NCBI GenBank assembly: GCA_963204815.1
Contig: CAUJHQ010000115.1
Coordinates: forward strand, 1-64,000
Origin: Pseudomonadota bacterium
Lineage (GTDB): Bacteria; Pseudomonadota; Gammaproteobacteria; Burkholderiales; Burkholderiaceae_C
DNA length: 64,000 nucleotides
Direction: 5' to 3'
Shown in pieces: positions 8,188-42,013 of this stretch. Every line of letters starts with the position of its first letter. Within the stretch, counting starts at the first letter, position 1. The position numbers were made by a program, and so were the translations under genes. The notes below the pieces were generated by a model. That model searched no databases. It was not told where the DNA came from and saw only the letters and a program-made list of their open reading frames with translations.

Positions 8188-8884
8188 CTAGATCGACATC
8201 TTCCGCCGCACCCCGTCGGCTTCCATGTCGGCGCCGCGGCCGCGGGCGACGATCTCGCCGCGTTCCATCACGAGGTACTGGTCGGCCAGTTCGGCGGCGA
8301 AGTCGTAGTACTGCTCGACGAGCACGATGGCCATCGTCTTGCGGTCGGCCAGCATGCGGATGACGCGGCCGATGTCCTTGATGATGCTCGGCTGGATGCC
8401 TTCGGTCGGCTCGTCCAGCATCAGGAGCTTCGGCCCCGCCGCCAGCGCGCGCGCGATCGCCAGCTGCTGCTGCTGGCCGCCGGAGAGGTCACCGCCGCGG
8501 CGGCCGATGAACTGCTTGAGGATCGGGAACAGGTCGAACAGCTCGGCCGGGATCGGCGTGCCGCCGGGCTTCACGGCCAGGCCCATGCGCAGGTTCTCTT
8601 CCACCGTCAGGCGGCCGAAGATCTCGCGCCCCTGCGGCACGTAGCCGATGCCGCGGCGCACACGTTCGTACGGGGTGGCCTTCGTGATGTCGGCGCCGTC
8701 GAGCTTCACGCTGCCGGTCTTCGCCGGCACCACGCCCATCAGGCTCTTCAGCAGCGTCGTCTTGCCGACGCCGTTGCGGCCCAGCACGACCGTCACCTCG
8801 CCGATGCGCGCCTCGAAGCCGAGGTTGCGCAGGATGTGGCTGCCGCCGTAGTACTGGTTCAGCCCGTCGACCTTGAGCAAGGCT

Positions 8885-8895
<11 letters not shown>
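8188..8895 (-). CDS. urtE: Urea ABC transporter ATP-binding subunit UrtE
   Basis: A 235-residue ABC ATPase with Walker A GRNGVGKTT, signature LSGGQQQQLAIARAL and Walker B LLMLDEPTEGIQ. The TTG at 8895 is preferred over the track's ATG at 8934. GGAGGT lies 5 bases upstream of it, the product then has the usual ~230-residue length, and it overlaps urtD by only 11 bp. Together with UrtD it powers the UrtBC channel for high-affinity urea uptake. It is the last gene of urtABCDE. Confidence 0.93.
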
Positions 8896-9732
<837 letters not shown>

Positions 9733-9736
<4 letters not shown>

Positions 9737-10812
9737 GAACGTTCTTCCTTCCTGCGCTTGAAGAGGCCGACGACACCGTTCGGCAGGAACAGCGTCACCG
9801 CGATGAACAGCGCGCCCAGGAAGAACAGCCAGAACTCCGGGAAGGCCACCGTGAACCAGCTCTTCGCGCCGTTGACAAAGAAGGCGCCGATGATCGGGCC
9901 GATGAGCGTGGCGCGCCCGCCCACCGCGGCCCAGATCGCGATCTCGATGCTGGCCGCCGGGCTCATCTCGCCCGGGTTGATGATGCCCACCTGCGGCACG
10001 TAGAGCGCACCGGCCACGCTGCACATCACGGCGCTCAGCGTCCAGATGCTGAGCTTGTAGGCGATGGGGTCGTAGCCGGTGAACATGACGCGGCTCTCGG
10101 CATCGCGGATCGCCTGCAGCACGCGGCCGTACTTGCTGTGCACGATGACGCGCGCCATCAGGAAGAAGCCGATCAGCACCAGCCCGGAGAGCACGCACAG
10201 GAACACGCGCATGCCCGGCGTGGCCACCGGAACGCCGAGGATGCGTTTGAAGTCGGTGAAGCCGTTGTTGCCGCCGAAGCCGGTCTCGTTGCGGAAGAAG
10301 AGCAGCATCGCCGCGAACGTGAGCGCCTGCGTGATGATCGAGAAGTACACGCCCTTGATGCGCGAGCGGAACGCGAAGTAGCCGAACACGAAGGCCAGCA
10401 GCCCCGGCACCAGGATCACCAGCAGCAACTGCGCGACGAAGCTGTCGGAGACTGCCCAGTGCCACGGGAATTCCTTCCAGTTCAGGAACACCATGAAGTC
10501 GGGCATCGGCAAACGGTACTGGCCGTCGCTGCCGATCTGGCGCATCAGGTACATGCCCATGCCGTAGCCGCCGAGCGCGAAGAACAGGCCGTGCCCCAGG
10601 CTCAGGATGCCGGTGTAGCCCCAGATCAGGTCCATCGCCAGCGCACAGATCGCGTAGCAGAGGATCTTGCCGAGCAGGCTGACGCTGTAGTCGGACAGGT
10701 GGAACACGCTGCCTTCCGGCACCGCCAGGCTCAGCACCGGCACCAGCACGGCGATGGTGACGGTGGCCGCTGCGACGGCGGCCCAGCCTTTGACTCCGAG
10801 CATCGTCTTCAT
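9733..10812 (-). CDS. urtC: Urea ABC transporter permease UrtC
   Basis: A 359-residue permease of the LivM type starting at the ATG at 10812. It has about ten hydrophobic segments, including the conserved IWGYTGILSLGHGLFFALGG stretch near residue 65 and the ATLIGPIIGAF segment near residue 310. A ~35-residue insertion around MPDFMVFLNWKEFPWHW lies between membrane segments and is typical of UrtC. The start overlaps urtB's stop by four bases and the stop overlaps urtD's start. Confidence 0.94.
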
Positions 10813-12398
10813 GCTTCGGCACTCCGGCCCTTCATCGCGAAGATGCCCTGCGGCCGCTTCTGGATGAAGATGACGATGAAGACCAGCACCATGATCTTGG
10901 CCAGCACCGCGCCCTGCCAGCCTTCGAGCAGCTTGTTCAGGATGCCCAGGCCCAGGCCGGCGTAGACGGTGCCCGCGAGCTGCCCGACGCCGCCCAGCAC
11001 CACCACCATGAAGCTGTCGACGATGTAGCCCTGGCCGAGGTCGGGGCCGACGTTGCCGACCTGGCTCAACGCGCAGCCTGCCAGCCCGGCGATGCCGGCG
11101 CCGAGCGCGAAGGCGTAGGTGTCCACGCGCGCCGTGTTCACGCCCATGCAGGAGGCCATGCGCCGGTTCTGCGTCACGCCGCGCACGAACAGGCCGAGCC
11201 GCGTCTTCGAGATCAGCAGCGCCATGCCTACCAGCACCGCGGCGGCGAAGGCGAGGATGGCCAGCCGGTTGTACGGCAGCACCAGGTTCGGCAGCACCTG
11301 CACGCCGCCCGAGAGCCACGAGGGGTTCTCGACGCCGACGTTCTGCGCGCCGAAGATCGAGCGCACCGCCTGCATCAGGATCAGGCTGATGCCCCAGGTG
11401 GCCAGCAGCGTCTCCAGCGGCCGGCCGTAGAGCCAGCGGATGACGCTGCGTTCGAGCGCGGCGCCCACCAGCGCGGCGGCGAGAAAGCTCACCGGGACGG
11501 CGGCGACGATGTACCAGTCGAACGCGCCCGGCAACGCGCTGCGGAACACGTTCTGCACCAGGTAGGTGGCGTAGGCGCCGATCATCATCAGCTCGCCGTG
11601 CGCCATGTTGATGACGCCCATCAGTCCGTAGGTGATGGCCAGGCCCAGCGCCACCAGCAGCAGGATCGAGCCGAGGCTGACGCCGGTGAACAGCAGGCCC
11701 AGGCGTTCGCCCCAGGCCAGGCGCGACTGCACGGTGTCCAGCGTGGCATTGAGCGCGGCCTTGACCTCGGCATCGGGCTCGGCGGCCAGGCGTTCGAGGA
11801 TGAGCGACTTGGTGGCCGGCTGGTCGCTGCCGGCCAGCAGCTTGGCGGCGGCCAGACGCTTCGCCTTGTCGGCCGAGGAGATCAGCACCGCGGCCTTCAG
11901 CATCGCGAGCTGGCCCTTCAGCGCGGCGTAGGTCTCGGCGGCTTCGGCGCGCTCGATGACGGCCAGCTTGCCTTCGTCGGCCTGATCCTTCAGTTCCGCG
12001 ATGGCCTTTGCGCGCACGGAGCGATCAGGGGCGAAGAGCTGCAGTGCGGCGAGCGCAGCTTCCATCTCGCGCCGCATGCGGTTGTTGTTGACGACGTCTT
12101 CGGCGCCGTCGGGCAGCGGGGCCGCGGCCCCGCTGCCGGCTTCGACGGCCTTGCCGTCGCGCACGATGAAGGCCTTGCCGCCGGCCACCTTCACTTCGTC
12201 CGCGAGCAGGGCCTGCAGGAAGGCGGCGACGGCCGGGTCGCCGGCCGCCACCGCTTCGTTCAGGGCGGCGATGCGGGCATCGCTGTCGCCCGCCGCGATG
12301 CGCCCCGCCTGTTCAGGCGTGAGCGCGAAGGCCGCGCTGCCGAGGATCGAGAGGAACGCTGCGGCACACAGTCCGCGCAAGGCCTTCGCGAGCAGCAT
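10809..12398 (-). CDS. urtB: Urea ABC transporter permease UrtB with periplasmic N-terminal domain
   Basis: A 529-residue protein. A signal-like hydrophobic N-terminus (FLSILGSAAFA) is followed by about 200 helical, alanine-rich residues outside the membrane, then a LivH-type permease (about 230-525). The core carries the GLAITYGLMGVINMAHGELMM motif and the VVVLGGVGQLAGTV segment. The long N-terminal domain is what separates UrtB from ordinary branched-chain amino acid permeases. The ATG directly follows the urtA stop (TAA at 12401-12399). Confidence 0.94.
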   Translation of the reverse strand: MLLAKALRGLCAAAFLSILGSAAFALTPEQAGRIAAGDSDARIAALNEAVAAGDPAVAAFLQALLADEVKVAGGKAFIVRDGKAVEAGSGAAAPLPDGAEDVVNNNRMRREMEAALAALQLFAPDRSVRAKAIAELKDQADEGKLAVIERAEAAETYAALKGQLAMLKAAVLISSADKAKRLAAAKLLAGSDQPATKSLILERLAAEPDAEVKAALNATLDTVQSRLAWGERLGLLFTGVSLGSILLLVALGLAITYGLMGVINMAHGELMMIGAYATYLVQNVFRSALPGAFDWYIVAAVPVSFLAAALVGAALERSVIRWLYGRPLETLLATWGISLILMQAVRSIFGAQNVGVENPSWLSGGVQVLPNLVLPYNRLAILAFAAAVLVGMALLISKTRLGLFVRGVTQNRRMASCMGVNTARVDTYAFALGAGIAGLAGCALSQVGNVGPDLGQGYIVDSFMVVVLGGVGQLAGTVYAGLGLGILNKLLEGWQGAVLAKIMVLVFIVIFIQKRPQGIFAMKGRSAEA

Positions 12399-40539: not shown

Positions 40540-40569
40540 TTCGGGTTAACCCTCCATCGCGGGCATAAT
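40540..40569 (+). promoter_or_regulatory. Predicted promoter of the glycine-riboswitch transcript
   Basis: CATAAT at 40564-40569 is a five-of-six match to the -10 consensus and lies about 45-50 bases before the first aptamer. The -35 is weak: TTCGGG at 40540 with 18-bp spacing. A GCAAGG/CCTTGC hairpin (about 40582-40598) occupies the leader between promoter and aptamer. Confidence 0.45.
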
Positions 40570-40609
40570 CGGCGCTTCTTCGCAAGGCTCGGCCTTGCGG
40601 GCCAAAAGC

Positions 40610-40810
40610 CCGATGGGCATCGGGAGAGACCGCGTTCGACGCGCGGCGCCGAAGGAGCAACCGCCCCGGAAACTCTCAGGCAAACGGACCGATGCCGTGG
40701 ATGAACTCTGCAGAGTCACCGGCTGCCTGACGTCCGCCGGTGCGCCGAAGGAGCAAGCGCCGCCCCATGGAGCGGCGCGAATCTCTCAGGTGACAGCGAC
40801 AGAGGGGGCG
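40610..40810 (+). promoter_or_regulatory. Tandem glycine riboswitch
   Basis: Two consecutive glycine aptamers. The first has CGGGAGAGACCG (40621), GGCGCCGAAGGAGCAA (about 40645) and AACTCTCAGGCAAACGGACCG (about 40670-40692). After a short linker the second has CTCTGCAGAGTCACCGG (about 40707), GTGCGCCGAAGGAGCAAGCGC (about 40740) and AATCTCTCAGGTGACAGCGACAGAGG (about 40780-40805). GGAGAGA, GCCGAAGGAGCAA and CTCTCAGG are the conserved core boxes, present in both copies. Such tandem elements usually turn on gcvTHP glycine cleavage or glycine transporters. Here the next gene is an ABC binding protein. Confidence 0.93.
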
Positions 40811-40814
40811 ACGA

Positions 40815-40832
40815 CCACCGGAGGTCCGGTGG
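40815..40832 (+). other. Riboswitch expression-platform hairpin with GGAGGT in its centre
   Basis: CCACCGGA-GG-TCCGGTGG can fold into a 7-8 bp stem directly after the second aptamer, with the Shine-Dalgarno-like GGAGGT at the tip. There is no U-tract, so transcription termination is unlikely. It lies 38 bases before the ATG and could instead compete with the end of aptamer 2 or tune ribosome access. Inferred. Confidence 0.4.
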
Positions 40833-40870
40833 CGTCATCGAATCCCGCCGACGTCGTACCGAGAGACTCC

Positions 40871-42013
40871 ATGACTTCCCGCACCTTCCGCCTCGGCTGC
40901 GTCGCCGCGGCCTGCTTCACCCTGTCCGCGCATGCCGCGGAACCCCTGGTCGTGCGCATCGGCCACGTCGCCGCGCTCAGCGGCCCGGCGGCGCACCTGG
41001 GCCGCGACAACGAGAACGGCGTCCGCATGGCGATCGAGGAACTGAACGCCAAGGGCGTGCAGATCGGCGGCCGCACGGCCCGCTTCGAGCTCGTCGCCGA
41101 AGACGACGCCGGCGACCCCAAGCAGGGCACCGCCGCGGCGCAGAAGCTCGTCGACCGCCAGGTCCACGGCGTCGTCGGCCACCTGAACTCGGGCACCGCG
41201 ATCCCGGCCGCGCGCATCTACGCCGACGCCGGCATCCCGCAGATCGCGCCCTCGGTGACGAACCCGCGCTACACGCGCCAGGGTTTCAAGACCACCTTCC
41301 GCATGGTCGCCGACGACGCGCAGCTCGGCGGCACGCTGGGCCGCTACGCGGTGCAGACGCTGAAGGCGAAGACGGTGGCCGTGATCGACGACCGCACCGC
41401 CTACGGCCAGGGCGTGGCCGCCGAGTTCGAGAAGGCCGCGAAGGCCGCCGGCGCGACCATTGCCAAGCGCGAGTTCACGAACGACAAGGCGACCGACTTC
41501 ACCGGCATCCTCACCGGCATCAAGTCGGCGAAGCCCGACGTCATCTTCTACGGCGGCATGGACGCGGTGGCCGGCCCGATGCTGCGCCAGATGAAGCAGC
41601 TGGGCGTGGCCTCGAAGTTCATGGGCGGCGACGGCGTCTGCACGGCCGAACTGCCGAAGTTGGCGTCCGGCCAGGTGCCGGACGGCCAGGTCGTCTGCGC
41701 CATCGCCGGCGGCGTCGATGCCGCGCAGCGCCCGGCCTTCGACAAGTTCAAGGCCGACTTCAAGAAGAAGTTCGGCACCGAGGTGCAGATCTACTCGCCC
41801 TACACCTACGACGCGACGAAGGTGCTGGTCGAGGCGATGGTGAAGGCCGGCTCGGCCGAACCTGCGAAGGTGCTGCCGGTGCTGCAGAAGATCAGCTACC
41901 CCGGCGTCACCGGCACGATCGCGTTCGACGAGCGGGGCGACATCCGCAACGGCGCGCTGACGCTCTACACGTACAAGGCCGGCCAGCGCGAGGAACTCGG
42001 CGTCGTTCGCTGA
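40871..42013 (+). CDS. ABC transporter substrate-binding protein, branched-chain amino acid type, under a glycine riboswitch
   Basis: A 380-residue type I periplasmic binding protein with a signal peptide (CVAAACFTLSAHA, cleavage near residue 22). The LivJ-like fold shows VRIGHVAALSGPAAHLGRDN, ELVAEDDAGDPKQG, VHGVVGHLNSGTAIPAARIYAD near residue 105 (ligand-contact loop) and QIYSPYTYDATKVLVEAM near 315. No permease or ATPase genes are adjacent. The riboswitch links its expression to glycine, so it may import glycine or a related amino acid, or feed a glycine-fuelled pathway. Ligand specificity is not readable. Confidence 0.93.
   Translation: MTSRTFRLGCVAAACFTLSAHAAEPLVVRIGHVAALSGPAAHLGRDNENGVRMAIEELNAKGVQIGGRTARFELVAEDDAGDPKQGTAAAQKLVDRQVHGVVGHLNSGTAIPAARIYADAGIPQIAPSVTNPRYTRQGFKTTFRMVADDAQLGGTLGRYAVQTLKAKTVAVIDDRTAYGQGVAAEFEKAAKAAGATIAKREFTNDKATDFTGILTGIKSAKPDVIFYGGMDAVAGPMLRQMKQLGVASKFMGGDGVCTAELPKLASGQVPDGQVVCAIAGGVDAAQRPAFDKFKADFKKKFGTEVQIYSPYTYDATKVLVEAMVKAGSAEPAKVLPVLQKISYPGVTGTIAFDERGDIRNGALTLYTYKAGQREELGVVR

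Follow-up and report, generated by a model that had tools for sequence, protein, structure and literature searches.

A tandem glycine riboswitch in front of an orphan LivJ-type binding-protein gene in a small Sphaerotilaceae clade, with asymmetric aptamers and a candidate translational ON-switch

Background

In the gcvT leader of Neisseria gonorrhoeae, the pocket strand of the second aptamer of a tandem glycine riboswitch is set against the translation-initiation region in a glycine ON-switch, as shown by mutation (PMC13104608). Crum et al. associated conservation of aptamer 1 with glycine-cleavage genes and conservation of aptamer 2 with transport genes, and proposed that singleton riboswitches are decayed tandems which keep a ghost aptamer (PMC6944388). 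According to the same study, aptamer-1 conservation accompanies ON-switches, a relation for which a citing paper also names Torgerson 2020.

The locus described here lies in a stretch of 64,000 nt (the window; positions 1 to 64,000 of contig CAUJHQ010000115.1, assembly GCA_963204815.1), where the last of two RF00504 glycine aptamers in tandem ends 58 nt 5' of a gene for a LivJ-type binding protein. The genome is assembled in 192 contigs, is 82.8% complete and has Rubrivivax gelatinosus among its relatives. E. coli LivJ is a LIV-type binding protein encoded apart from its permease. To our knowledge, neither LivJ nor BraC3 of Rhizobium is known under a glycine riboswitch. BraC3 is an orphan which uses the Bra membrane complex and is specific for branched-chain amino acids and alanine (PMC2978685). 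No orphan LivJ-type binding protein was found as a target in the glycine-riboswitch surveys in the accessible literature; the RNA class at this locus is known, and its target is unusual.

Results

Two aptamers in one leader

The leader and the gene are arranged as follows.

40600..40615, forward strand: leader strand GGCCAAAAGCCCGATG, candidate 5' half of a leader-linker kink-turn (P0)
40611..40701, forward strand: glycine aptamer 1, RF00504 75.8 bits, near-consensus and presumed main sensor
40703..40812, forward strand: glycine aptamer 2, RF00504 50.3 bits (match 40698-40812)
40871..42013, forward strand: orphan, monocistronic gene for a LivJ-type periplasmic amino-acid binding protein of 380 aa, ATG at 40871, PF13458 8.6e-62

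The first-pass annotation had proposed a tandem glycine riboswitch before the binding-protein gene and expected two matches to the Rfam glycine model. Both matches were obtained (40611-40701 and 40698-40812), which confirms the tandem, and both exceed the RF00504 gathering cut-off of 32 bits within one leader. Aptamer 1 has an E-value of 4e-14 against all of Rfam, and aptamer 2 on its own (scan of 40702-40870) reaches 42.5 bits. A plain cmscan lists aptamer 1 only and notes that one overlapping match from its clan was omitted; apparently, aptamer 2 is dropped in clan competition owing to its 4-nt overlap with aptamer 1 (40698-40701). The resulting first impression of a single aptamer was rejected because a whole-genome cmsearch and the isolated scan both find aptamer 2. 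As a general observation, cmscan can hide the second aptamer of closely spaced tandems, which is revealed by scanning the second half separately.

RNAalifold on the seven orthologous leaders recovered both aptamers independently of the RF00504 search. In these orthologs, the leader GCCCGA is invariant and the linker GGA(U/C)GAAC is conserved; by analogy with published work (PMC5666159), the leader strand would take part in a P0 kink-turn.

The second aptamer is the diverging one

The P3 core GCCGAAGGAGCAA ... CUCUCAGG, which forms the glycine pocket, is intact in both window aptamers. At P1-J1/2, aptamer 1 carries GGAGAG and aptamer 2 GCAGAG, and J3/1 of aptamer 2 is also divergent. None of the seven orthologous tandems keeps GGAGAG in aptamer 2, where it is replaced by GCAGAG or GAAGAA. 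Elsewhere in the genus, 50 of the 51 remaining glycine riboswitches retain it. The motif is typical rather than strictly defining, as aptamer 2 still lies above the family cut-off without it. Six of the seven tandems have an intact P3 core in aptamer 2, and only that of IM151 is mutated (GCCGCAGG, CTCCCAGG). The view that both aptamers are complete was therefore too strong: it stands for the near-consensus aptamer 1, while aptamer 2 is recognisable but has lost its GGAGAG junction.

The RF00504 scores follow the same asymmetry. Aptamer 1 has 65.6-75.8 bits in all eight orthologous leaders, and aptamer 2 has 50.3, 45.9, 44.8 or 35.8 bits or is not reported. The leaders of this transport protein display the aptamer-1 conservation of cleavage genes. 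Bit scores alone were not used to predict ON or OFF control, given that aptamer 2 is the higher-scoring one in several gcvT-type tandems of these genomes.

Distribution and history of the leader

The sample comprised a set of 80 named homologs (66-82% identity), together with further orthologs from searches of 81 genus-level genomes, 401 family-level genomes and the genera in which matches occurred. Among the 80 named homologs, a motif search found paired core motifs upstream only in R. gelatinosus IM 151, and Rfam agreed on the 16 of these loci to which it was applied; an order-level search gave no further ortholog above threshold. Tandem leaders (n = 7) occur in the window genome, G061, G049, G024, G062 (apparently IM 151), G088 and G234. 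An eighth leader, L163 of genome G476, has aptamer 1 (70.9 bits) and the linker, after which ACTCTGCAGAGTTGCC runs straight into AAACGAGATTTCATG; in place of the aptamer-2 body there is just a short hairpin. L163 thus has the layout of a type-1 singleton, namely aptamer 1 with a 3' ghost hairpin, and the window does not. The orthologs in G327 and G478 and those of Azohydromonas type are without a riboswitch.

In a maximum-likelihood protein tree, the eight riboswitch-bearing proteins form one clade with a support of 92/95, the bootstrap being not fully settled. G327 and G478 are sister to this clade, and the Azohydromonas group falls outside. The singleton is nested among the tandems, within a sub-clade whose forks are weakly supported. 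The simplest history is a single gain of the riboswitch, followed by a single loss of the aptamer-2 body; G476 represents a natural tandem-to-singleton decay.

A further element precedes the riboswitch.

40543..40569, forward strand: promoter block GGGTTAACCC ... CATAAT (-10-like), conserved in the riboswitch-bearing orthologs and in the riboswitch-less sisters L159 and L164

Relative to the ATG, GGGTTAACCC-N-CATAAT lies at about -307 to -326 in tandem leaders, at about -187 in the singleton and at -68/-108 where there is no riboswitch; a generic sigma-70 scan did not report the block. Since it is common to leaders with and without the riboswitch, at differing distances, these positions fit a history in which a riboswitch module was inserted into a leader that was already there.

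Other glycine riboswitches in the genome and the genus

The absence of the usual targets (gcvTHP) that the first-pass annotation had noted holds locally. At the genome level it is ruled out, as gcvT-gcvH-gcvP lie on another contig (C134) behind their own tandem glycine riboswitch. Many genomes of the genus have another glycine riboswitch of the tandem type, which stands before a gene for a DadA-like D-amino-acid dehydrogenase (L096, L112, L125, L127, L130, L132, L133, L137, L140, L143, L144, L149 and L151), the L112 protein matching NCBIfam PRK00711 at 8.6e-150. No paper turned up in a full-text literature search for the two terms "glycine riboswitch" and "D-amino acid dehydrogenase" together. 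An NCS1-type permease (PF02133; L135:1873-3360, genome G006) lies about 1.5 kb 3' of a glycine riboswitch.

Local alignment scores of window aptamer 1 are 114-150 against orthologous leaders of the same gene and at most 49 against all other riboswitches examined. On these scores, we rejected the idea that the riboswitch was copied recently from the resident gcvT or dadA one.

The binding protein, its partner and its ligand

The Peripla_BP_6 domain (PF13458) runs over the full length of the protein (residues 28-369). NCBIfam NF011933, the LivJ/LivK subfamily model, matches at 3.8e-70 with 236.8 bits versus the 477 required; by its sequence, the protein falls within the superfamily of LivJ/LivK and outside that E. 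coli subfamily. Its nearest solved relatives are PDB 3ip5 (1.6e-62), which we take to be Agrobacterium Atu2422, and the E. coli leucine- and LIV-binding proteins.

As had been annotated, the only downstream gene on the same strand is that of the LivJ-like binding protein, and no permease or ATPase adjoins it. On the 142-kb contig, no permease of the matching type (PF02653) was found except urea-type ones about 29 kb away. A urea-type ABC transporter, so assigned by eye, occupies 8188-12398 on the reverse strand of the window, with a UrtE-like ATPase and BPD_transp_2 permeases at 9796-10680 and 10869-11693. A paralog of 70% identity on contig C173 (L152) lacks the glycine-riboswitch motif, and no permease was seen at that locus or at the R. 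gelatinosus locus (L147).

A livHMGF operon without a binding-protein gene is present on contig C7 of the same genome (L185:5698-9381, reverse strand); LivH, LivM, LivG and LivF are its best models, all below their cut-offs. Owing to this operon, the "lone" protein is probably not functionally alone, and a C7-type LivHMGF complex would be its probable partner. The partner is not certain, because the PF02653-type permease family has 45 matches in the genome.

By alignment, S107, T130, Y178 and D254, presumably the anchor residues for an alpha-amino acid, are present. Fourteen mapped positions, which we assume to line the binding cleft as in E. coli LBP and Atu2422, are shared by nearly all orthologs, riboswitch-bearing or riboswitch-less, and the 70% paralogs depart from them at a single site. 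These 14 positions give no sign of a specificity change on arrival of the riboswitch, so that specificity need not have changed at that point, and a LIV-type ligand (branched-chain amino acids, alanine, perhaps GABA) appears more likely than glycine. Only the riboswitch class suggests that the protein binds glycine itself, which would turn the switch into a glycine-uptake loop, and the alpha-amino-acid anchors are in place for it. The mapped pocket, however, is shared with nearly all riboswitch-less orthologs, and the closest solved structures are Atu2422 and the leucine- and LIV-binding proteins. The earlier suggestion of glycine as a ligand thus found no support, and we consider it decidedly unlikely.

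The expression platform

Between aptamer 2 and the start codon, and within aptamer 2 itself, the following elements bear on control.

40729..40734, forward strand: GACGTC in the P2 loop of aptamer 2, invariant in 7/7
40782..40787, forward strand: UCUCUC, P3 strand of aptamer 2, predicted anti-Shine-Dalgarno partner without glycine
40810..40836, forward strand: hairpin 3' of aptamer 2 (expression platform), from the consensus structure of 7 orthologs
40850..40855, forward strand: GACGTC, five bases before GAGAGA, invariant in 7/7 with constant spacing and variable flanking bases
40861..40866, forward strand: GAGAGA, probable Shine-Dalgarno region, with AGAGA invariant in 7/7 directly before the ATG

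GAGAGA is a weak Shine-Dalgarno sequence. In the unconstrained fold of the window leader, 40782-40787 pair with 40861-40866 (P 0.93-1.0), and GAGAGA is predicted to pair with the P3 pocket strand of aptamer 2 or 1 in four of the seven leaders. Forcing the native aptamers raises the unpaired probability of GAGAGA from 0.01 to 0.40 in the window leader and from 0.05 to 0.35, 0.16 to 0.35 and 0.01 to 0.68 in the other three responsive leaders. The leaders of G061, IM151 and G088 are predicted to fold without a switch, and forcing has no such effect there. Reaching the native state takes 8-18 kcal/mol, with ligand and tertiary contacts left out of account, in nearest-neighbour energies that are unreliable for a GC-rich RNA of 320 nt. 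In the platform hairpin, the column pair 229-241 is C-G in three orthologs, G-C in three and broken in one.

No intrinsic terminator was found in the leader of about 300 nt, and a leader of this kind could also act through Rho-dependent termination or mRNA decay instead of direct ribosome access. The platform element, however, ends at the ribosome-binding region in 7/7 leaders, and the nearest studied case kept its glycine response under bicyclomycin (PMC13104608), which makes such a route rather unlikely.

The two GACGTC copies are the sole pair of invariant complementary hexamers in the alignment of seven leaders, and GACGTC-N5-RAGAGA is invariant in the seven tandems. RNAalifold pairs the RAGAGA-proximal copy with the linker GGAUG rather than with the P2 loop, a contact of the latter kind being one that nested folds cannot score. 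Covariation cannot decide between these partners because neither copy ever varies. The copies are self-complementary and may form a kissing contact between the P2 loop and the platform.

Could the tandem be a vestige without regulatory effect? The decay of aptamer 2, whose body is gone in one species, would suit a vestige, as would the sister orthologs that manage without a riboswitch. Against this, aptamer 1 holds its 65.6-75.8 bits in eight orthologs from four genera while the flanks diverge, and GACGTC-N5-RAGAGA is unchanged across the seven tandems. A vestige is therefore very unlikely, and the same conservation lends good support to the earlier proposal of glycine-controlled expression of a lone binding protein.

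Discussion

On balance, we favour a translational glycine ON-switch, which entered a clade ancestor once, over a LivJ-type protein that loads a LivHMGF-type permease encoded elsewhere. Glycine is taken to be the effector from the riboswitch class. The ancestor of a small clade of Sphaerotilaceae would have acquired the tandem in the leader of a single orphan LivJ-type gene. Glycine would mainly be bound by aptamer 1, which would dock with and stabilise aptamer 2; the docked aptamer 2 would then hold UCUCUC within its P3 helix and off GAGAGA. With plentiful glycine, GAGAGA would be free and the binding protein made, to load the LivHMGF-type permease; without glycine, UCUCUC would pair with GAGAGA and block translation.

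The first-pass annotation had left open whether glycine induces or represses the gene. Induction is favoured because aptamer 1 is the conserved one and GAGAGA complements the pocket strand of aptamer 2, as in the published ON-switch, so that by analogy the direction may be narrowed to ON. Most transporter genes that have been characterised under a glycine riboswitch are OFF-controlled (PMC6944388), which counts against this reading and speaks for an OFF-switch, by which glycine would shut off the binding protein as it does sodium:alanine symporters, the protein importing glycine or small amino acids whose excess is toxic. The OFF types, however, conserve aptamer 2, and at this locus aptamer 1 is conserved while aptamer 2 decays in 7/7 tandems and is deleted in L163; moreover, the complementarity of GAGAGA to the free pocket strand predicts sequestration without glycine. 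We regard OFF control as unlikely. The ON-switch also has points against it, as three leaders show no predicted switch and L163 has no aptamer-2 strand. With that strand gone, the L163 platform must work differently.

Why glycine should induce such a protein may be sought in the cell wall. Glycine excess disturbs alanine use in cell-wall synthesis (PMC5666159), so that uptake of alanine or branched-chain amino acids could help. Alternatively, glycine may merely signal an amino-acid-rich setting.

If the switch is ON, it breaks the rule by which catabolic genes are turned ON and transport genes OFF. The orthologs form a series that runs from leaders without a riboswitch through tandems, one of them mutated in its second pocket, to a singleton with a leftover hairpin; this series is an ortholog-level case for singletons arising from tandem decay, with intermediates that can be tested directly. 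The promoter common to leaders with and without the riboswitch offers a small, datable example of a riboswitch being added to a gene that was already in place. Taken as a whole, a glycine-ON uptake protein that reverses the logic of characterised transporters, together with tandem-to-singleton decay in orthologous leaders and a GACGUC:GACGUC contact between P2 loop and platform, is a tentative proposition, more doubtful than not.

Comparison with known systems

The N. gonorrhoeae gcvT tandem (PMC13104608) resembles this locus in having two RF00504 aptamers with one platform and no terminator, in the complementarity of the aptamer-2 pocket strand to the region before the start codon, and in an aptamer 1 that is nearest to consensus. 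It differs in its target, which here is an orphan transport protein and not gcvT; in addition, J1/2 of aptamer 2 lacks GGAGAG here, and an invariant GACGTC stands in both the P2 loop and the platform.

The "TP" class of V. cholerae, Bacillaceae and Streptococcus symporters (PMC6944388) likewise has a transport gene under a tandem glycine riboswitch. TP riboswitches conserve aptamer 2 and act as OFF-switches, whereas the present leaders conserve aptamer 1, and their target is a periplasmic ABC binding protein instead of a sodium:alanine symporter. The type-1 singleton with a ghost aptamer (PMC6944388) is matched by L163, where aptamer 1 is followed by a short hairpin in the place of aptamer 2, whereas the window and six orthologs retain a recognisable second aptamer. 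BraC3 of Rhizobium (PMC2978685) is alike in being a LivJ-family binding protein encoded away from its permease. This variant is worth testing for its target, for the aptamer-1 bias in front of a transport gene and for the decay series among its orthologs.
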